From Strongyloides papillosus (Eukaryota; Nematoda; Chromadorea; Rhabditida; Strongyloididae), in the NCBI GenBank assembly GCA_005656395.1, contig SRSI01000004.1:1116001-1180000 (forward strand): a stretch of 64,000 bases of DNA, written 5' to 3'. Position numbers and translations under genes: made by a program. Under the pieces are notes generated by a model, which saw nothing but the letters and a program-made list of their open reading frames with translations, was not told where the DNA came from and searched no databases. This document shows positions 50,358 through 63,698 of the stretch, one piece after another (positions within the stretch are counted from its first letter, which is position 1; every line of letters begins with the position of its first letter).

Positions 50358-51774
50358 CACACAAGTTAAAAATTTCGCAATTTAAGGTTGCAATTTAATG
50401 CTAATTGTCATACAATTCACCTAAAATTGTATAACAATTTAATGAATTTTGTATTACATTTTTACTAATTTTTGTATAGGTACAATTCTATTCAAATTGT
50501 ATTACAATTTAGGTAGAATTGTTATGCATTCCAGGTAGAATAGTTTTGCATTTTAGGAAGAATTAGTTATGCATTTTAAGAAGAATCGTTAGGCATTCTA
50601 GGTAGAATAGTTTTGCATTTTAGATAGAATTGTTTTGCATTTTAGGTAGAATTGTTTTACATTTTTGGTAGAATTGTATGACAATTGAGGAAGAATTGTA
50701 TGACATTTGAGGGTGAATTGTATGACATTTGAGGAAGAATTGTATAACAATTTAGGTAAAATTGTTATGCAAATTTTATAAAAAAAATTATCAAATATAT
50801 TTAATTAATTATATTCTTCTTGGGAAACAGAAAAATAATAAATAAAAAGATTAAGAATTAAATAAATATACTATAAACTAAGTGATGTACTAAATTAATC
50901 TAATAAACTTAATAAAAGTTTGGAATATTAAATGTAAAATCACAAAAATAATGTTAGTACTTAAAACATTGTTATATAGATATAGAAGGACTTTCATTTT
51001 CTAAACATTAATAATACATTTGTATCTCAATATAAATTTAGAAAATTTTATTAATGAAAACGCAAAACAAAAATAAAAATGATCAAGAATTTTACAAATA
51101 GATCAACATTATATGATTCAAAAAAGCGATTTACAGAAAATAAGATAAGTATGATGTTTGAAAATTATTTATTAAAAATTTTGTTACATAGTTCATACAA
51201 CATATATTAATTACTAATTAACTATTAAAATAAAATCTTTATTAAATTTATATTGAAGTACATGTATATTATAAATGTTTAGAAAATGAAAGTTCTTCCA
51301 TATTTAAATAACAATGTTTTTAAGTACTAACATTATTTTTGTGATTTTACATTTATTTCCAAACTTTTATTAAGTTTATTAGATTAATTTAGTACATCAC
51401 TTAGTTTATAGTATATTTATTTAATTCTTAATCTTTTTATTTATTATTTTTCTGTTTTTCAAAAAGAATATAATTAATTAAATATATTTGGTAATTTTTT
51501 TTTATAAAATTTGCATAACAATTTTACCTAAATTGTTATACAATTCTTCCTCAAATGTCATACAATTCACCCTCAAATGTCATACAATTCTTCCTCAATT
51601 GTCATACAATTCTACCTAAAATGTAAAACAATTCTACCTAAAATGCAAAACAATTCTATCTAAAATGCAAAACTATTCTATTCATTTTGTAAGATTTCCT
51701 TTTTTTGTAAATGTAATACAATTTTACATAAATTGTCATGTGCATCTTAAATTGCGGAATTTTTAATTTGTGTG
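50358..51774. mobile_element. 1.4 kb foldback element with 22-bp tandem repeats in both arms
   Basis: Ends CACACAAGTTAAAAATTTCGC and the complement of GCGGAATTTTTAATTTGTGTG, each flanked by TA. The arms, nearly 700 bp each, are inverted over their whole length except a ~100-bp centre near 51060-51160. Each arm contains a tandem array of a 22-bp unit of the type GGTAGAATTGTTTTGCATTT: about 12 units in the left arm, about 8 in the right. No coding sequence. TA flanks fit the Tc1/mariner group. Confidence 0.85.
50512..50776. repeat. Tandem array of a 22-bp unit (about 12 copies)
   Basis: Units read GGTAGAATTGTTATGCATTC, GGTAGAATAGTTTTGCATTT, GATAGAATTGTTTTGCATTT, GGAAGAATTGTATGACATTT and so on; all 22 bp except one of 23 bp. 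The right arm carries the complementary array at about 51520-51690. Confidence 0.9.
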
Positions 51775-52128: not shown

Positions 52129-52327
52129 CCGGAGGCGGGACCATCAAATGTATTCAATTAATTTACATTATTAAAATATATTTGTGGTAGTTTATGTTAG
52201 AAATTTTAATAGTTACGCATTGCTAACTTTTAATATTTGACAAATAGTATATAATACTTTTTTTTAATAAAATTTTAGTTAAAACTATATTTTTTTATAA
52301 TTTTAAAAAATTGTATGATGTAATATT

Positions 52328-52537
52328 TGTAATGGAAATTGATCGTCATGAAAATAATAAATAAAAGAATATCAATAATCAAGACCAAAGACAAAAGACT
52401 ATTTAAATAATTTATACATTTTTTATATATTCTCGAGTATTATAAAAGTAGAATGGAATAGATGATAACGGGGGCATTTCTCGGTTGTTAATAAACATTA
52501 TACATACTTGTGTGTACTATATTTATATTTCATAACA
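52328..52537 (+). repeat. 5' LTR of the intact retrotransposon
   Basis: 210 bp, TG..CA ends. Holds a TATA box TATAAAAG (52441-52448) and a poly(A) signal AATAAA (52490-52495), so transcription likely starts around 52470 and the R region ends downstream of the signal. Confidence 0.95.
52441..52448 (+). promoter_or_regulatory. TATA box in 5' LTR
   Basis: TATAAAAG in the LTR, about 40 bp before the AATAAA signal; position is normal for an LTR promoter. Confidence 0.6.
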
Positions 52538-55500
52538 TGGAGGTTCCACCTGCGAACATAAAATTTTTTCTATTCCTGCGTCCGCTAACTATTATTACTC
52601 GCGAGTTACAACGTTACTGCTACATCGTCTTAGCAGTAGTATCATATGGTTATATATTAACATTTCAATCATTGCAGACCTTTGACATGAAGACGATTTT
52701 TCGCCGTAAGAAACGCAATGATGCGGACTTATTATCTTTTGAGACTGCAGTCGAAAACTTGAAACCTAAATGGCGCAAGCACCAAGAGGACGCTCTGGAC
52801 AAAAGCGCTGAGGATCAACAGGAGGTATACCGACAAATGAAGCAGGAATTCGACGAATTACGCAGGAGACATGGAATAACAGCTGAGATTCAACCCCCCA
52901 TATTCCAATTCAAGATTAAAGATACCACTGAACAACAAAATAAGATTAACCAAGATTTGATGAAGAATATCAGAGCTGATGGACTTTTGGTACCATTCAA
53001 CGGTACGACTGTACATGACTTAGAAAAATGGATCACTCAAACCTTGACAATGCTAAAAACAATCGCTTTAACGGAAGAACGTATTCCCCTTACAATGAAA
53101 ATTGCCAAAAACTATCTGAATAAACTGATTCCTGATGGTTACCGATTTGACAATATCATGAAAAGAGCATGGACTGACAAAAATGATGATATCGAACAGA
53201 TTTTTAAGAAAATGATACACATCCTTCACTCTACTGGAATTGCTGAAAACGAAAAATGCAAATTATCAACACCCATACAAGGTCAAGATGAATCCGTTAT
53301 GACTTATAGCAAACGATTTGAAGAATATCATAAGCAACTTGAAGGAACAGATGAATTCAACAGACTTATTCATGCCGACACTATTAGTACGAGGCTGTAT
53401 GTTCTTTTATTGAAAGGATTGAACAATTCTATCAAGAAACATCTTCCAATACCAGGTCTACAAAAACTGATATATGAAGAAGTTATTGAAAAGCTGACAG
53501 AAGTAGAAAATACTGCCTTAATATTCGGAGATAATAACCATGTCAATGCTATTAACAATTCACGACAATTCAATAAGAAGTTTTTTAATAAAAATAACAG
53601 ACAATACAAACCCCGATACAATACGAATTCTTCTAATCACAAGGAAACTACATCCAATGGTAATACCTATGAAAAGAAAAACAAGACCAACTTTAATAAG
53701 AGAAAGCCTAATACCAATTATAAATCAAACAAATACACCAACTCTAGACGAAATTATATGAACAACATTGAATCTACCAATGCTAAACTTGATGAAGCAT
53801 GTAACCAATTGAGAGAATTAACGTTCGTTATTAAAAATGCCTTTACAATTTGTATTTTAATATTTTGTTTTTGTCTACCGCTGGCTGGAGCAACTAACAC
53901 CACATGTTTGACAGAACCTAAGAATTTTAAATTGTTATACAAGAACTTTAGAAACTTTGTCAAAGACGATGCCTTACCAATGCAAATATACAGAATACCT
54001 AACAACTGTATTTTAACAGATCCCAGTGTTTATGTGAAAATTCATTCCATATACATCAATGACAAAGACAGTTCGGAACTTCAACTACACAATACGGAAG
54101 CACTATGTGACACTACCAAAGTATTTGAAGATTTAAATGGTAACAAATATGGTGTTGTACCTATTGCAACCAATAGTTATAAAGTATCTGCTGTCAAAAG
54201 AGCAAGCCATTACTTAGAATACTTTAATAATTTTGAAAGCGTTGAAAAGTGTCCCGAAATCATTGAAATCTCAGATCATCCTTCAGTGAAGATAGAACCA
54301 ATAATTCCATCACAACCACCTGCAGCATCAATTAATCAAACAGTTCTTAGAAAACGACCCCCCATTGAGCACAAAGACGATGCTGTAGTCAAAATACGTA
54401 AGTCTACTGAAGATGAATTAGCGAGATGTGAAGATGAAAAGTCACAATTAAAGGAAGTTCTCAGCAAATTGGAACTTGAAAAGGAACAATGGTTACGGGA
54501 TAAGGCGTTATTGGAACGTACAATCCAAGAACAAAATGCAAAACATGAGAGTGTACGTTTCGATTTGCAGTCTCAGATAGATCAAAAAGATAAAGATATC
54601 AAGACATTGAATAACAGAATTATTGACTATCAGTCGTCTATTTCGGAGAAAAGTCAACAACTTCGAAATTTTCAACAACAACTTCAGTCGTTATCTTCTT
54701 CTGTGAAAGCAAACGATCCCAAAGATCTAATGGAAAAAGTGACCAATCTAGAAAATTTTATGAATAACTTCAAATGTCCAACAATTCCAACATTATCTTG
54801 TCCACCTTGTGACCTCAAGAATGTTAATGCCAATATCAATAATTTGAAACAACGAACACCAACAGACTTGGATAAACGGATATCTGGAATTGAATATAGC
54901 ATGTCGAAACTGGAGCACGCAATAAATTCTTATTCACCTAGTATTGATGTGCGGCCAGAAATAGATGGATTACACGCAGCTATCTCCGAGATCCCTACAT
55001 TAATGAAACAACTTAAAGAGGAACAAGTTGAAAACAAACATTCTAACTCTACAACATCGGTAACTTGTCATTGCGCTAATTCACCTGATTTGACGGAATG
55101 GCTAACAAATATACCGAAAAAGGGTATTGAGGACACAATGACAGGTATGCCTAGCAGCATTGTTGCGATTATTTCTATCATCCTGACGTTATTGACTAAG
55201 AATGGACTTCATCATCTTCGGAATAGGTTTAATTCCCATCCATCTACGACTAGGGAAGAAGCCCCATTATATATTGTCGACGATTCACCTAAATATCGTT
55301 CGATTCACGTACGAACGGATGAGGAAATGGAAATAAACGAAATATTACATGAAGCTAGTCCTATTATTACTTTGGATATTGGCACAACATGTCTGGATAC
55401 ACTAATAGACACTGGAGCTAACCTCAACGTAATACACTGGAATAGCTTTCAGCAAATAAGTGATAAATACAAAAGTGAAATAAGAACTACAACTCAGAGG

Positions 55501-58500
55501 GCACGTGCAGCAAATGGACAGGCTATGAAATTTGAGGGAGAAGTTGACGTCTATTTAACAATTGGAAATAGACATGTTGCAGTACCAACCCTCATAAGTA
55601 AAGAAATTAACCACGATTTCATTATTGGACGTCAAACACTAAAGGAAATGGGAGATAGCACACTTTTTAATTGGAAACGTGGAAGAATTGAATTTGGAGA
55701 TCAATTTTATGATATCAAAAATTCATCGAAGGTATATTCCAAAAAGAAAATAAGATTGCCTCCATATTCATCAAACATTATTCATTGTGGACTACAAACC
55801 AAAGATTTCCCCTATGAAAATGGATATTTTATCGTCAACGATGATTTCAGGAAAGACAATCTTCTACTCACATGTAATCAATTAGGAAATATTCATGAAA
55901 ATATGTATGCTGTATTAATAATTAATATGGGTAACAATCCTGTCACATTACCGAAGAATAAGCAAATAGGAAGAATTGCCGGTATTGTAGCTGAAACAGA
56001 TAACTCTGTTACTATAAAAGGAGAGGAACTAATACCTGATGGAGGAGATTGGGAAGAAAATTTACCACCATATCCTGTAAATAAGATCTTGTCAGATAAT
56101 GAATTACTTTCACTTATAAATTGGAAGGAGTGCAATTTATCAAAACGAAACATAGAGAAATTAAAGAAGATCGTTCTCAAATATAACCTAGCTTTTCATG
56201 AGTATGATGGCAAGATAGGAAGATATAAAGGCAAAGAAAAGTTAACTATCCGATTGAAGGACAACAATTCATTACCAAAGCCGATAAGAGCACAGCAATT
56301 ATCAAGAGAAAAAGAAGCTGAAATAGAACGACAAATCAAACAAATGATTGAAGAAGATATGATAGAACCATCACGAAGCCCCTATCTTTCAAGAGTTGTA
56401 TTAGTTAAGAAGAAAGATTCAAATTGGCGCTTTGTAGTGGATTTTCGGAGAATTAATTCATTAGTTGAAGCACAAAGTCATCACATACCAAAAATACAAA
56501 ATATTCTCAATGAAGCAGCCGGAAAACGATTTTATTCAACATTTGATTTGAAATCTGGATTTCACCAAATAGCTCTGGATGCATCATCTAGAAAATTAGC
56601 TTCTTTTGTTACTCACCAAGGTATTTTTAGTTATAAAGTAATGCCTATGGGTTTAACAGGAAGTCCGGATGCCTTTCAAAGAATAATGGAAACTGTTCTT
56701 TTCGGACTTGTGAATACTTTTGTATACATTGACGACATTTTAACAGCTTCAGATAATGAGGAAGAACACTTGGAGAATATCGAAGCAATTCTCAAACGTA
56801 TACAAGATAACGGTATGAAGATATCATTAAAGAAAAGTAGTTTTGGTCTATTACAAATAAACTACTTAGGTTATACTATTGATTTTCATGGAATTAAGCC
56901 AAATCAAGACAAAATATCAGCATTGGAAAAGAAACAAACTCCAAAAACAGCTAAAGAAGTTAAATCTTTTATGGGAGCTGCATCCTATTTCCGCAGACAT
57001 ATACCAAATTTTGCACGTATCGCTGAACCATTGTATCGCGTTACTAATGAATTTATTTGGACTGCAGCACAGGAAACTGCTTTTCAAAACATAAAGAAAG
57101 CATTAATAAATGCTGCTTGTCTTAAGAAACCAGATAGTCGTGGAAAATATGAAATTCAAACGGATGCATCTAATCAAGGAATTGGAGCTGTTTTAATTCA
57201 AGAAAATCGCCCTGTAGCATTTATATCAAGATCATTAACAAAAAGTGAAAAGAATTATCCGCCTATCAAACTTGAAGCAATTGCCCTAATATACGCACTA
57301 CGTACTTTTAGAAGTTACATTTATGGAAAACAGACACAAGTTTACACTGATCATAAGCCTTTATTGGCCCTGATAAAGAATAAGAATTTAAAAGGAATAT
57401 TGGAAAGATTTCAACTCGCAATAATGGAATACGATGTTAAAATTGACTACGTCAAAGGTCCTGATAATCACATGGCAGATTATCTTTCAAGAGAAACGTT
57501 TAACCTCATAGCAGCCCTAGATGCTGCATTTCCAGTAATGCAACAACCATATGATACACCCTATAACATCAAAAATTTTATTCATTACTACACGGCAGAG
57601 GATAACTTTAAGTACGACGGTAAACCTCTGGTCACCGTTCGGAACAAAAATCGTTTCTACGTTCCAGAAACATTGCGAGGAGAATTATTAACTAGGTATC
57701 ACAAACACCCACTGCTTGGAAGCCACTTTGGATATCAGAAATGTGCTGAATACTTTCAAAGAATTTTCTATTGGCCTGAAATGATAAAGGATATGAAATC
57801 AGTTTGGGAAAATTGTTCTGAATGTTTAGCAAATAAAGAGCAACCCAATAGAAAAATTGCTGTCGTAAAGAAGCATTTAGAAAGACCCAATGAAATATTC
57901 AAAACATTATCCATAGATTATGGTGTCATAGAAGAAGGAAAATATGTTCTCGCTGTGGTGGATGAATTTACCAAATTTGCACAAGTAGCTATCACAACTA
58001 ATCAAGGAGCTTTAACAACAACTACAGAATTAATGAAGATGTTTTGTAATTTTGGATTTCCACAAACAATCAGAAGCGACAATGGGCCCACCTTCAAATC
58101 AACGAAGTTTGTCGCCTTTCTCAAAGAGTTAGGAATTCAACATCTCACTTCATCTGCTCACCACCACAAAGGAAACAGCATTGCTGAACGATTTATAAGA
58201 ACAATCAGAGAACGATTGAGATTCTATGACGTCTCCAATAATACTATTTACATGTGTGCTTTCGCTCACAACAACATGAAACACACCACAACAAATATGA
58301 GTCCAATGTCACTTATATTGAACACAAAACCGCATCCTATTACTGGATCACCTATACATGCAAAGTTAAGTGGAATGTTGGATCTTTTCAAAACAACCAC
58401 GCCTCAAGAACAAGTAACTAATGCCAATCTTTTACAAGAAGGTGAGAAAGTATGGAAACGTATTATCAATACAAGAACAACTAAGCAAAAGAATACACCA

Positions 58501-58644
58501 CAATATGATGGACCATACATTGTTGTGAAACATATTTATGGTGATACTTACGTTATACGTAAGATCACGGGGAAAGGAAGAATGACGGGACAAGAATTAA
58601 AAGTAAATGCTGAGATGCTGAAGAAAGAAAGTAACTCCAACTAG
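52537..58644 (+). CDS. Gag–[envelope-like membrane/coiled-coil module]–Pol polyprotein
   Basis: 2035 codons from ATG 52537; ATG 52687 is an alternative start that drops a hydrophobic N terminus. Residues: gag capsid-like core ~149-325; Asn/Lys/Arg-rich basic stretch ~337-408 in place of CCHC knuckles; hydrophobic segment ~434-452 with signal-like end LPLAGA, then an NTT glycosylation motif; Cys-bearing domain; coiled coil ~619-723; CPTIPTLSCPPC ~747-758; CHC near 845; membrane segment ~871-889. Protease DTG at 958, RT YIDD 1397-1400, RNase H Asp 1543, integrase HHCC ~1722-1765, integrase D1794, D1848, E1884 (D-35-E), and a GPY-type C-terminal domain. All catalytic residues are intact. The module between gag and protease is unusual: env normally follows pol. 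Two membrane segments would leave gag and pol on the same side. That topology is inferred. Confidence 0.9.
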   Translation: MEVPPANIKFFLFLRPLTIITRELQRYCYIVLAVVSYGYILTFQSLQTFDMKTIFRRKKRNDADLLSFETAVENLKPKWRKHQEDALDKSAEDQQEVYRQMKQEFDELRRRHGITAEIQPPIFQFKIKDTTEQQNKINQDLMKNIRADGLLVPFNGTTVHDLEKWITQTLTMLKTIALTEERIPLTMKIAKNYLNKLIPDGYRFDNIMKRAWTDKNDDIEQIFKKMIHILHSTGIAENEKCKLSTPIQGQDESVMTYSKRFEEYHKQLEGTDEFNRLIHADTISTRLYVLLLKGLNNSIKKHLPIPGLQKLIYEEVIEKLTEVENTALIFGDNNHVNAINNSRQFNKKFFNKNNRQYKPRYNTNSSNHKETTSNGNTYEKKNKTNFNKRKPNTNYKSNKYTNSRRNYMNNIESTNAKLDEACNQLRELTFVIKNAFTICILIFCFCLPLAGATNTTCLTEPKNFKLLYKNFRNFVKDDALPMQIYRIPNNCILTDPSVYVKIHSIYINDKDSSELQLHNTEALCDTTKVFEDLNGNKYGVVPIATNSYKVSAVKRASHYLEYFNNFESVEKCPEIIEISDHPSVKIEPIIPSQPPAASINQTVLRKRPPIEHKDDAVVKIRKSTEDELARCEDEKSQLKEVLSKLELEKEQWLRDKALLERTIQEQNAKHESVRFDLQSQIDQKDKDIKTLNNRIIDYQSSISEKSQQLRNFQQQLQSLSSSVKANDPKDLMEKVTNLENFMNNFKCPTIPTLSCPPCDLKNVNANINNLKQRTPTDLDKRISGIEYSMSKLEHAINSYSPSIDVRPEIDGLHAAISEIPTLMKQLKEEQVENKHSNSTTSVTCHCANSPDLTEWLTNIPKKGIEDTMTGMPSSIVAIISIILTLLTKNGLHHLRNRFNSHPSTTREEAPLYIVDDSPKYRSIHVRTDEEMEINEILHEASPIITLDIGTTCLDTLIDTGANLNVIHWNSFQQISDKYKSEIRTTTQRARAANGQAMKFEGEVDVYLTIGNRHVAVPTLISKEINHDFIIGRQTLKEMGDSTLFNWKRGRIEFGDQFYDIKNSSKVYSKKKIRLPPYSSNIIHCGLQTKDFPYENGYFIVNDDFRKDNLLLTCNQLGNIHENMYAVLIINMGNNPVTLPKNKQIGRIAGIVAETDNSVTIKGEELIPDGGDWEENLPPYPVNKILSDNELLSLINWKECNLSKRNIEKLKKIVLKYNLAFHEYDGKIGRYKGKEKLTIRLKDNNSLPKPIRAQQLSREKEAEIERQIKQMIEEDMIEPSRSPYLSRVVLVKKKDSNWRFVVDFRRINSLVEAQSHHIPKIQNILNEAAGKRFYSTFDLKSGFHQIALDASSRKLASFVTHQGIFSYKVMPMGLTGSPDAFQRIMETVLFGLVNTFVYIDDILTASDNEEEHLENIEAILKRIQDNGMKISLKKSSFGLLQINYLGYTIDFHGIKPNQDKISALEKKQTPKTAKEVKSFMGAASYFRRHIPNFARIAEPLYRVTNEFIWTAAQETAFQNIKKALINAACLKKPDSRGKYEIQTDASNQGIGAVLIQENRPVAFISRSLTKSEKNYPPIKLEAIALIYALRTFRSYIYGKQTQVYTDHKPLLALIKNKNLKGILERFQLAIMEYDVKIDYVKGPDNHMADYLSRETFNLIAALDAAFPVMQQPYDTPYNIKNFIHYYTAEDNFKYDGKPLVTVRNKNRFYVPETLRGELLTRYHKHPLLGSHFGYQKCAEYFQRIFYWPEMIKDMKSVWENCSECLANKEQPNRKIAVVKKHLERPNEIFKTLSIDYGVIEEGKYVLAVVDEFTKFAQVAITTNQGALTTTTELMKMFCNFGFPQTIRSDNGPTFKSTKFVAFLKELGIQHLTSSAHHHKGNSIAERFIRTIRERLRFYDVSNNTIYMCAFAHNNMKHTTTNMSPMSLILNTKPHPITGSPIHAKLSGMLDLFKTTTPQEQVTNANLLQEGEKVWKRIINTRTTKQKNTPQYDGPYIVVKHIYGDTYVIRKITGKGRMTGQELKVNAEMLKKESNSN
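52538..52550 (+). promoter_or_regulatory. Primer-binding site
   Basis: TGGAGGTTCCACC directly after the LTR end; TGG matches the complement of a tRNA CCA end. The matching tRNA is not identified. The likely gag-pol ATG (52537-52539) overlaps its first bases. Confidence 0.75.
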
Positions 58645-58838: not shown

Positions 58839-59142
58839 TTATGCTTCTATTCCCTTTCTTCTATCAAAATCGCCATCTTCATATGCTGGGACAACAGGAT
58901 CAGTAGCACTAGAAATAAATAAAAGAAAATGATAAAGAAAACAGAAAAACAACTCACAAATTAAATCCAACTTGACGACCCTGTGCCGAATAAAAAGCAC
59001 CCATAACAACCCTTCTATTTTGGATATGTTGAGATGGACGAAAATGGCGGATGAGACGACCTATAATCATGATAAGTGATATGGTTGATACAATTGACAA
59101 TCCTACAGCCAAGAATAATGTTTTTTGATCGTAACACTCCAT
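58839..59142 (-). CDS. Antisense spliced ORF: 84-residue single-pass membrane protein inside the retrotransposon
   Basis: Minus strand, between the pol stop and the 3' LTR. Exon 1 59142-58958, intron 58957-58909 (49 bp, GTGAGT..TTTCTAG), exon 2 58908-58839; phase-2 join; 84 residues ending in TAA. The short N terminus is followed by a hydrophobic segment at about residues 8-29 (LFLAVGLSIVSTISLIMIIG), a basic stop-transfer (RLIRHFRPSQ), then a polar, acidic C terminus (PVVPAYEDGDFDRRKGIEA). No family recognised. The intron has ideal splice sites and the frame is maintained across it, which argues for a real gene rather than a chance frame. Opposite orientation means it needs its own promoter or antisense transcription from the 3' LTR. 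It might be an accessory membrane protein of the element or a captured host gene. Confidence 0.65.
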
Positions 59143-59580: not shown

Positions 59581-59790
59581 TGTAATGGAAATTGATCGTC
59601 ATGAAAATAATAAATAAAAGAATATCAATAATCAAGACCAAAGACAAAAGACTATTTAAATAATTTATACATTTTTTATATATTCTCGAGTATTATAAAA
59701 GTAGAATGGAATAGATGATAACGGGGGCATTTCTCGGTTGTTAATAAACATTATACATACTTGTGTGTACTATATTTATATTTCATAACA
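59581..59790 (+). repeat. 3' LTR of the intact retrotransposon
   Basis: 210 bp, no difference from the 5' LTR seen by eye; followed by the TATT duplication. Confidence 0.95.
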
Positions 59791-59794
59791 TATT

Positions 59795-60961: not shown

Positions 60962-62683
60962 ACACACAAAACCAAATCATTTCTTTTTGACCGACCACCA
61001 TACAAAACAATATACAATACACGAGCATTTTGTTTGACCACCCTCCCATAATTAATAAAAATGCATAGAGCGGTTTGATATAAACAACTTTATACATTTT
61101 CATAAAACTACACAAGCATTTTTGCATAAACAGATACTGTGCGGTTTTTACCTTTTTACACATGTTGGTTTTATAAAAAAATCATGTGTCGGTTTAATAT
61201 ACAATTACTGGTGTGGTTTATAAAAAAAATGCCCTATGTTGGTTTATAGGAAAACGTATTATTTTTCACTCAATTATAAATTTAAACTTTATTAATAAAA
61301 TTAATAATAAAATCATTTACAATAATAATAAATAAAATTTTATTTATTACAAGATAAAAATACATAAAAAAAATATATAAACAACCAGTAAAAAACTTTT
61401 TAAATAATTAAACGACCGGTTAAAAATGAAAAATTCATCCAGTATTATCTTTCATATTTTTTAGTTTTTTTTCAGCTTCATTCATCCTGTCAAGATTCAT
61501 TGTAGCTCTTAAAAAGTTATCTCTAAGAATCCTGTAACGGCTACTTTCATGTGATACTTCTACAAAACCAGTTCTTGGATTAGCTTTTAACTTTAGAAAT
61601 ATTTATCTTTTGATTTCGTTAGTCAATTCAGTCTATCTTTAGTCCAATTTAGAAATAATAGACTCTTGATCGGGTGACATCATAATTTTAGTCTGAAAAA
61701 GAAAATAGGGAAATATATAAATAAATATTTAAAGGGTGAATATTATTTTTAAAATGAATTAACGACCACTATACATTTTAAAACTATGTAAAAACTTTTC
61801 TATTTAAAAAAAGAAAACATAAGAGTGTCAAAAATACAAATGATTTTTACAATCATACTTTATTTGTTTTTTATTACTATGTTTTAAAAAATTAATTATA
61901 TAATAATTAAAAAAATTTTTATTTGTAATAAACTCGGAGCAAGATCCTCTCAACTTAAAGTAAATATTAATTCTTATTAATAATAAAATTTTCTATCCCT
62001 TCAATAGTTTCATCTACTTGTTTTTCAAAGTACCATCAGTATTTCTTTTTGATTTAACTATTTTCCATTACTGCTTCTTGTCCTGAAGTAAGCAAACTAA
62101 TTTCATATTCATTAAATTGAGCTGAATTCTTTAAGGTAGGTATAAAATTTTCTAACAAATTTACCAGGTCTTGATACTGCTATTTTATACCTACCAGCAT
62201 ACAAAATTAAAATACAAATAAAAAAAGAGATTTTGCATGATCAACTGATTTTTGTAGAGTTTTAACAAGTCCATCCTTATAACTAGACTTCAAGAGTTGT
62301 ACTAGTGATTCGTGAAATTTTTTAAAAAGTAACCCACAACTATTTTTGTTTCTAAAATTATGACTGCTTCAAGGAAAAGATTAACGTCTCCAGAGGTTGT
62401 TGATACATAAGGAGACAGTATATTCTTTTTATATCATTATTGTTATCCATCTCATTTATTAATTTAGTTCTTGTTCCTGAAAATAATAATTCTTCGACTG
62501 GCCTTTCAAGGATTGTAGGTAAAATAAAGTAAATTTTATAAATGATGACTATACTAATCTTATAAACTTCTATTGGAATCTTAAGAAAGAATACAGTAAC
62601 AATAACGATATTAAATTCAACATCGTGGCCACCTACATTAATTAATAAAAACATTATTAAAAATAGCGACTTACGGTTTACAA

Positions 62684-63507
62684 CATATATACCATTTCCC
62701 GGTCAAATTCAACATTTTCTCAACCGAACTCAACATTTTCCTATTCAATTTCAACATTTTTCCATTCAAATTCAACATTTTCCTATTCAAATTCAACATT
62801 TTCCCATTCAAAAACAACATTTTTTTATTCAATTTCGACACTTCATAATCATCTTCTTAAAGATTAATATTAATTTTTTTAGTTATAAGGTATGTTTTTT
62901 AAAATATTATATATTAATATAAAATTATATAAAACTTTTAATAAATTTTTAATTTATAAAAAGCATACAATTTTAAAAATTAATAAATTTGATTTCATTT
63001 ATGGCAATAGGGAAGTTCAGCAGCACAATTTGTAATATTTTTTGTAATGTATCTAAAGTACCCATTACAATCAGTTGATGTAATATTATTTATCTCAGAC
63101 ATTATTACATCTGATAAAACTCCATTATCATTATTTCTTAATCTTGATCTAACGCAGTTTTTAATCTTAGAAAATGCATTTTCAATAGGATTAAGCATGT
63201 ATGAATATGGTGAAAAAAATTTAAAGTTAAAATTAAACATGCTTGTAATTCTTTCAATTTCATCGCGTTTACTTTTTCATTAAAGTAAAATTTACAAGAA
63301 AGAGTACTTAATTTTATAAAAATTACATTTTTTACCTTTAAAAAATTAAAAATAAAAGTAAATTGAAGCATTGTTGAATTTGAATAATAAAATGTTGAAA
63401 TTGAATAGGAAAATGTTGAATTTGAATGGAGAAATGTTGAAATTGAATAGGAAAATGTTGACTTTGGTTGGGAAAATGTTGAATTTGACCGGGAAATGGT
63501 ATATATG
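62684..63507 (-). mobile_element. Tc1/IS630-type element with terminal repeats made of 21-bp tandem units
   Basis: Ends CATATATACCATTTCCCGG and CCGGGAAATGGTATATATG are exact inverted copies. Inside each end is a run of 21-bp units of the type ATTCAAATTCAACATTTTCC: six or seven at the left (62701-62835), six at the right (63370-63490), inverted. The centre encodes a transposase fragment. The TA-rich junctions hide the exact TA duplication. About 820 bp, absent from copy 1 of the host element. Confidence 0.8.
62995..63240 (-). pseudogene. C-terminal fragment of a Tc1/IS630-type transposase
   Basis: Minus-strand frame with SPYSYMLNPIENAFSKIK, matching the PYSPxLNPIE motif that carries the last catalytic acid of Tc1/mariner/IS630 DDE transposases, followed by a basic helix (CVRSRLR). 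Earlier catalytic Asp residues and the DNA-binding domain are missing. Too short to be active. Confidence 0.75.
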
Positions 63508-63698
63508 ATGATTATTACAATAAATGAATGAATGGTGAAATAATAAAAAACTCTTATTTATATATAAAAAAACTTATCTAAACTTCAATCTTTAAAATTT
63601 TACCTTCTCTTTTTTACTATAATATTTTGGAAACTCAATTCCAGTATTCTTAAAAAGATAATCATTCAACTCTATGTCGTTTTGTCTTTAATAATATA

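Follow-up and report, generated by a model that had tools for sequence, protein, structure and literature searches.

A predicted membrane and coiled-coil module lies in frame between gag and protease in a Ty3/gypsy retrotransposon lineage of Strongyloides papillosus

We analysed a stretch of 64,000 nucleotides of the Strongyloides papillosus genome (the window; assembly GCA_005656395.1, contig SRSI01000004.1, positions 1,116,001 to 1,180,000, forward strand) that carries a long terminal repeat (LTR) retrotransposon with a predicted membrane and coiled-coil module between gag and protease. A frame of 2044 codons (52510-58644, + strand) runs uninterrupted through gag, the module, protease (PR), reverse transcriptase (RT), RNase H and integrase (IN). 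The two LTRs, 210 nt each, show no difference (the 211-nt direct repeat 52328-52538/59581-59791 includes a final base that is coincidental), and by eye the element is bordered by a 4-bp target duplication, tatt (left 52324-52327, right 59791-59794). The initial annotation had called this an intact LTR retrotransposon, and the identical 210-nt LTRs, the tatt on both sides and the single open frame bear it out. Pfam domains after the module follow the Ty3/gypsy order (retropepsin, RT, RNase H, H2C2, rve); with its PR-RT-RNase H-integrase order, paired LTRs and short target duplication, the element belongs to the Ty3/gypsy LTR retrotransposons. Gag of the window had no significant Pfam match, to matrix or otherwise. 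Translation of the gag-module-pol frame likely starts at ATG 52687 rather than at the GTG within the LTR. The features of the element are as follows.

52328..52537, + strand: 5' LTR, TGTAATGG...AACA, a 100% match to the 3' copy
52510..58644, + strand: single open frame, from the open reading frame (ORF) list and Pfam domains; the program-listed start GTG falls within the LTR
55351..55653, + strand: retropepsin (PF00077, 24.1 bits; PF13975, 28.2 bits), with DTGA at 55408
56404..56880, + strand: reverse transcriptase core (PF00078)
57058..57432, + strand: RNase H (PF17919/PF17917)
57661..58164, + strand: integrase zinc-binding and core domains (PF17921, PF00665)
59581..59790, + strand: 3' LTR, then tatt at 59791-59794

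The module (53821-55215) lies in frame between gag and PR. It comprises a hydrophobic segment ending LPLAGA (transmembrane segment 1, TM1), an NTT motif, cysteines, a coiled coil, the cluster CPTIPTLSCPPC, a CHC cluster and a second hydrophobic segment, MPSSIVAIISIILTLLT (TM2). These features, in one unbroken frame, were present as the initial annotation had described them.

53824..53892, + strand: TM1, internal signal-peptide-like segment FVIKNAFTICILIFCFCLPLAGA, estimated insertion energy -1.06
53893..54348, + strand: predicted lumenal domain, with three cysteine columns invariant across 12 aligned rows
54349..54357, + strand: basic patch RKR between this domain and the coil; the J family has a similar patch
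54373..54759, + strand: coiled coil, from AlphaFold2 helices and heptad contrast
54775..54810, + strand: CPTIPTLSCPPC cluster, identical in the genomic copy L036 and the database protein P0004
55066..55074, + strand: CHC cluster, identical in L036
55147..55197, + strand: TM2, weaker hydrophobic segment MPSSIVAIISIILTLLT, estimated insertion energy +1.33

The 12 aligned rows in which the three module cysteines are invariant comprise the window element and 11 others, drawn from types A, C, D, E, F and J, type A being that of the window. Both hydrophobic segments recur in L036 (Kyte-Doolittle 2.29 for TM1 and 1.89 for TM2). AlphaFold2 placed helices at module residues 185-295 and 300-316, with block mean predicted local distance difference test (pLDDT) scores of 73-91 over residues 191-290 and lower past that. 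Heptad contrast over residues 185-300 was 0.80, a value reached by 0 of 300 shuffles, and over residues 320-410 it was unremarkable (matched in 20 of 300 shuffles). These values agree with the coiled coil of about 100 residues that had been read from the sequence.

We examined how widely the module occurs in this genome (58.2 Mb, 79 contigs), where 150 RT hits were scored and 40 loci, mostly picked for long open frames, were sampled over some 4.6 kb ahead of RT, or 4.0 kb in one case. A module occupied the gag-protease slot at 33 of the 40 loci (A 1, B 4, C 8, D 6, E 4, F 2, I 1, J 7), and its stretch was inspected in 13 of the 33. The TM2 string was present in all 33 and TM1 in 32, having been lost in L014. 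Six loci (L044, L045, L047-L050) were module-less, with a CCHC knuckle 85-122 residues ahead of the protease motif and a compact gag-PR; L051, a mosaic that overlaps L031 and has an open frame of just 250 residues, is in neither count. In a midpoint-rooted PR-RT tree of 40 rows (identical rows and L051 removed, the window and three database rows added), the 34 module-bearing rows were separated from the 6 module-less rows at 99/97, and the A family was sister to the J family (85/84); the tree has long branches, and the placement of B and I is unsure. Full-length database relatives found with a J-type query (P0007, P0008) carry the module whole. The nearest database proteins, among the candidates scored, came from S. 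papillosus and S. venezuelensis; these protein searches covered few species, one scoring the 7991 candidates that shared most words and another using a 210-residue region of a J element. The initial annotation had proposed to look for the same domain order in related nematode genomes; it was found at 33 of 40 sampled loci of this genome and in P0007 and P0008. The module is a trait of the lineage, not a freak of one element.

Profile comparison linked C to both E and J, D to F and, more weakly (60%), A to C, the last via TM1 and the first cysteine only; by eye, A joins C also through the TM2 motif. With ectodomains alone, the J-C/E link was strong (92%), the J-D/F link weak (31%) and A was linked to none. 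We therefore take the C, E and J modules as one family, to which A is joined by the TM2 motif and the pol tree and the D/F modules probably belong as well. The B and I modules showed no relation to the window module by profile comparison and appear to be separate occupants of the gag-protease slot. B-type elements (L012:1570-3699) have a proline-rich module in this slot, retain CCHC knuckles and carry the protease motif DDGS, as against DTGA. Among the RT hits, three of equal score with an even spacing of 4792 bp on contig C37 (near 446881-456947) form a tandem array of one element.

Between the window and its copy on contig C27, the ratio of nonsynonymous to synonymous change (dN/dS) was 0.104 for gag and 0.065 for PR-RT; for the three parts of the module it was 0.108 (TM1 plus ectodomain), 0.121 (coil) and 0.130 (TM2 plus linker), at a module dS of about 0.67-0.89. 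The module evolves as protein. The LTRs of the C27 copy are identical over 202 nt, as are those of the window over their own length, and therefore two long-separated lineages have both moved recently with the module intact. Other comparisons add little: close pairs inside other families have few changes (module dN/dS 0.10 to 0.65, one undefined), and most distant pairs are saturated, with values of 0.24 to 0.41 for those that gave a ratio.

Insertion energies were estimated on the biological insertion scale for 14 rows related to the window module. They ranged from -1.64 to +1.01 kcal/mol for TM1 and from +1.18 to +2.68 kcal/mol for TM2, and the best segment outside the two scored above +3 in 10 of the 14 rows. 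Among the separate occupants of the slot, the TM2 energy was -4.08 in the I type and -0.17 in the B type. TM1 ends in small residues of the signal-peptidase kind (AGA, ASA, SAT and AKA, for example) in the inspected families except I, by eye. Two sequon columns are conserved in the J-family ectodomain (5/6 and 6/6 rows) while their middle residue varies, and one is conserved in C/E gag, over two rows. Of the two membrane segments proposed for the window, the first is signal-like (-1.06) and the second is hydrophobic but marginal as a membrane pass (+1.33).

A short motif, [VIMF][NH]x[IV], flanks the module. It was counted after a [VI]NxI-like pattern had been noticed at both ends (post hoc), and 2000 shuffles of the flanks (means 1.19 and 3.11) never attained the observed counts. 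Ahead of TM1 it occurs within 60 residues in 14 of 14 rows, at 22-34 residues (L016 has two more, closer). Between TM2 and the protease DTGA it occurs in 12 of 14, with a match 24-33 residues ahead of DTGA in 11; P0008 and L016 have none there. Per 100 residues, the two flanks had motif densities of 2.02 and 1.23, as against 0.17 for gag, 0.23 for the module and 0.61 for PR-RT. The matches in the window include the following.

53542..53553, + strand: VNAI, putative protease site ahead of the gag basic region
53758..53769, + strand: MNNI, putative protease site 22 residues ahead of TM1
55333..55344, + strand: INEI, putative protease site 24 residues ahead of the protease DTGA

The window frame also has VNKI in the PR-RT linker, FNLI between RNase H and integrase, one match in the module and two in RT. 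We infer that the flanking motifs may be sites for the element's own protease.

We lean, without strong conviction, towards reading the module as a membrane-anchored surface protein built into the Gag-Pol of a Strongyloides Ty3/gypsy lineage and released by signal peptidase and the element's own protease. As the ribosome exits gag, TM1 would take the part of an internal signal peptide, with a cut by host signal peptidase behind it. The cysteine domain and coil would pass into the lumen of the endoplasmic reticulum (ER), TM2 would stop transfer, and the protease and remaining Pol would be made in the cytosol. The element's protease could then cut at the flanking [VI]NxI-type sites, which would free Gag and Pol and leave a type I membrane protein whose tail is short and basic. 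Least certain is the use of the released protein; it would likely serve particles as an envelope or surface protein, or serve passage from cell to cell. The initial annotation had both passes leaving gag and pol cytosolic; the flanking motifs and the J-family sequons fit this arrangement, whereas the TM2 pass is weak.

Several observations weigh against this reading. TM2 was marginal in all 14 related rows; in two of them it was outscored by a segment elsewhere, in the window by one at residue 34, ahead of the likely start (0.11), and in L041 by one near the open-frame start (1.49). Net charge around TM1 gave no clear sign of orientation. No sequon column is conserved in the C/E or D/F ectodomains, the NTT and the other window sequons are absent in the nearest copy, L036, and one column is conserved in 6/6 rows of the J-family PR-RT (middle residue Gly in 5/6), which is expected to be cytosolic. 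As sequon columns are conserved in the J ectodomain, but neither in C/E or D/F nor from the window to L036, the case for lumenal exposure of the module is fair in J and weak elsewhere. As for the flanks, L023 has its downstream motif only at -54, B-type flanks are without the motif, the I type has it on the gag side only, and the shuffles overstate the motif because it had been seen before it was counted. Because the 40 RT loci were picked for long frames, the sample favours intact elements. The two S. papillosus gene models covering the region, P0004 and P0006, both omit the TM1 stretch. Finally, Pfam, PDB-sequence searches and AlphaFold2 models gave no known fold or family for the module, and no furin site or fusion peptide was convincing by eye.

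These last points bear on whether the module is an envelope; the initial annotation had supposed an envelope or surface protein. The window module had only below-cut-off matches in Pfam, largely of coil type. A PDB profile search returned mainly coils and retroviral proteases, with none significant for the ectodomain among the best 60 of 95 matches; in the coil region, single matches to a spike (E 0.16) and a hemagglutinin chain (E 0.21) stood among many coils. AlphaFold2, run with five sequences, gave a mean pLDDT of 47.2 over the module and 35.0 over its ectodomain, and no fold search was made with the module because models this weak give meaningless matches. A viral_contigs scan with query A1 found no relative. 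By eye, the basic patch in A and J precedes polar sequence, not a fusion peptide. The position of the module, too, is unlike that of class I retrovirus Env, which follows pol; here the module shares the pol frame and stands between gag and PR. The structure prediction that had been proposed ended in a poorly modelled ectodomain, and the Pfam and PDB profile searches gave no significant match to a fusion protein. With no Pfam, PDB-sequence or fold tie to such proteins, no convincing furin site or fusion peptide and a weak TM2, these results do not establish the module as an envelope.

A sister lineage, the I type, has a different domain in the same slot. In L037 (contig C76) this comprises a 322-residue ectodomain, 5 sequons and a strong C-terminal TM.

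L037:870-2252, - strand: I-type module, sequon-bearing and glycoprotein-like

The I-type module has 29 matches in the genome. A divergent copy (41%) lies inside a gag-module-protease frame in L065 (L065:388-3147), and homologues occur in L066, L067 and L068, whose frames measure 519, 521 and 395 residues. A C-terminal TM is present in all three; L066 and L067 additionally have a signal-like start of their own and many sequons. The longest stop-to-stop frame in the 6 kb upstream of L066 is 315 residues and there are no direct repeats of at least 40 nt within the surrounding 4 kb, so L066 looks stand-alone; the L067 and L068 frames are apparently stand-alone too. Among the four members of the I-type relative set A5, L068 alone matched Monjiviricetes_fusion, at 17.2 bits (E 0.0013), under the curated cut-off of 27; the best match in the genome, an ORF on contig C22, was also sub-threshold (22.4 bits) and had no relation to the I type by profile comparison. 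The in-slot module of L037 had no Monjiviricetes_fusion match. Contamination of contig C76 was considered as the source of the I-type module and rejected, given a guanine-cytosine content of 0.361 that fits other tested elements and two 99%-identical copies on other contigs. A cysteine pattern suspected by eye to be shared by the A, J, C/E and D/F ectodomains with I, B and the C22 ORF was likewise dropped, profile comparison having given no relation. The I-type domain appears more envelope-like than the window module and seemingly unrelated to it. Its presence hints that envelope-type proteins enter the gag-protease slot, without showing that the window module is one. Of the alternatives in the initial annotation, that an envelope had been moved or independently gained, the first is unsupported for the window module. 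The findings are better described as independent gain at this position, because the I-type sister lineage has an unrelatable glycoprotein-like domain with stand-alone homologues in the same slot.

Two other readings were weighed. The module could be a membrane tether that replaces matrix and drags Gag-Pol to the ER or plasma membrane for assembly or budding, and it would then play no part in entry. TM1 and TM2 would suit a tether just as well, the Pfam and PDB searches found no resemblance to fusion proteins, and the window gag lacks a significant match to matrix as to any other Pfam family. Against this, the ectodomain measures 421-574 residues, has conserved cysteines and includes a long coil, which exceeds the needs of a tether, and protease-site-like motifs on both flanks suggest that the module is released; we regard a tether as rather unlikely. 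Less probable again is a cytosolic coiled-coil extension of gag with its hydrophobic stretches packed inside the protein. The coil is the sole part modelled well by AlphaFold2, TM2 is weak, most sequons are unconserved, and Cer1 GAG offers a parallel in a predicted long coiled coil ahead of its capsid-like domain (PMC10309623). Yet TM1 resembles a signal peptide and ends in small residues in the inspected families, I excepted, and the module sits after the basic region, not before the capsid. The initial annotation had named an ordinary gag extension as what would overturn it; the six module-less elements of the same genome have a compact gag-PR without such an extension, which speaks against it, and we retain the coil extension as an improbable alternative.

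A third possibility is a retained intron or optional exon, made up of the whole module or just of its TM1 part, so that the main Gag-Pol product lacks it. The omission of the TM1 stretch from P0004 and P0006 would fit, and may reflect annotation or splicing. The same two models retain the later part of the module, the full-length relatives P0007 and P0008 retain all of it, and dN/dS is about 0.11-0.13 across the module at the dS given above. Since the module is in frame, coding and constrained in each of its three parts (0.108, 0.121, 0.130), an intron, which had been raised as a refutation at the outset, is very improbable.

The region after pol carries a further candidate gene on the opposite strand.

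58839..59142, - strand: antisense gene of two exons encoding an 84-aa protein with one TM and a basic stretch, splicing predicted from sequence
59142-58958, - strand: exon 1
58957-58909, - strand: intron, 49 nt, GTGAGT...CTAG
58908-58839, - strand: exon 2

The C27 copy has the same exon structure, with a 49-nt intron and a 12-nt in-frame insertion, and between the two copies the gene is under purifying selection (dS 0.572, dN 0.076, ratio 0.132). Exon 1 has four genomic matches, the window included. The predicted protein has a short ectodomain, one TM (estimated -2.23) and a basic patch after it. Being antisense, the intron would stay in the genomic RNA and not be spliced out, which suggests that an intron can survive retrotransposition if it lies on the opposite strand. 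On the sense strand, the longest listed ORF from 58644 to the 3' LTR is 47 aa, so there is no CERV-like coding region after pol.

Related 3' regions and flanks showed other features. Two K-type elements of the J family, L057 (sense 695-1435) and L060 (529-1311), have after pol an acidic sense ORF that is related between them, spans about 240 residues and carries NPIIIDDD close to the start. Short one-TM ORFs with a basic stretch lie near J-family elements in L057 (antisense 91-324) and L061 (antisense, sense-nt 2355-2624); their membership in the elements is unproven, as no LTR was found in the stretches covered and the L057-L060 alignment ends at base 1529 of L057, short of the ORF. The 3' region of L059 (D type) has an antisense stop-to-stop frame of 404 residues (627-1838), possibly a host gene or an accessory gene. 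Near the window element are 22-nt tandem repeats and long inverted repeats with arms of up to 210 nt (50472-51681 and 62681-63510).

More broadly, these elements might be an enveloped Ty3/gypsy lineage in which Gag-Env-Pol is one membrane-threaded polyprotein split by host signal peptidase and the retropepsin, unrelated surface proteins are swapped in and out of the slot and a spliced antisense FAST-like protein has been added; we offer this tentatively and with some doubt. Retroviruses are thought to descend from LTR elements that acquired env after pol. If the preferred reading is right, a membrane protein inside Gag-Pol would be a different way to obtain a surface protein, one that needs no message of its own and fixes the ratio of all parts, and would pose a cell-biological problem, as a retroelement polyprotein would cross the ER membrane twice with Pol still reaching the cytosol. 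That the slot holds two further kinds of module (B, I), unrelatable to that of the window, suggests that the position itself is useful. The initial annotation knew of no described element with this order, and we found none: searches of an open-access library, judged by titles and the openings of abstracts, gave no paper on an envelope-like part between gag and protease. What is new here is a gypsy element with a membrane module in a position without a record found in that literature.

Envelopes of LTR elements have a signal peptide, cysteines, a coil and a C-terminal hydrophobic segment, and in gypsy and errantiviruses env follows pol and is made from a spliced RNA. The element described here resembles those with Drosophila gypsy/errantivirus Env and other captured envelopes in being a Ty3/gypsy element with a predicted membrane protein that has a signal-like segment, cysteines, a coil and a weak C-terminal hydrophobic segment; it differs in that env stands after pol there and before protease inside the polyprotein here, and no sequence similarity was found. 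Retroviral env, too, follows pol and comes from a spliced RNA (PMC10309623). C. elegans Cer1 is likewise a nematode Ty3/gypsy element with one long polyprotein, but it has an extra protein, CERV, which is nuclear, needed for export of the genomic RNA and encoded in its C-terminal half after pol, and the available text of the two sources describes no membrane module between gag and protease (PMC10309623, PMC3315495). The hepatitis C virus core protein ends in the signal peptide of E1, which signal peptidase cuts (PMC5402940); this unrelated virus is alike in mechanism only, a capsid followed by an envelope signal peptide, and here two retropepsin sites would also take part. The sORF2 proteins of the Drosophila MDG1 group are FAST-like, lie upstream of gag and have transcripts without splicing, and 4 of 6 have an N-terminal myristoylation motif (PMC11952523). 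The window antisense protein shares a short N-terminus, one TM and a basic stretch with them, whereas its gene is antisense, apparently spliced and in the 3' region, and its N-terminus, MECYDQ, is without the glycine myristoylation motif. Anakin comprises chuvirus-derived glycoproteins captured by mosquito Pao elements, of which solo copies exist (PMC7642597). Those elements are BEL/Pao, the available text of PMC7642597 gives no gag-glycoprotein-protease order, and the window module has no such similarity; the likeness is in the capture of glycoproteins by LTR elements, and L068, one I-type relative, weakly matches Monjiviricetes_fusion.

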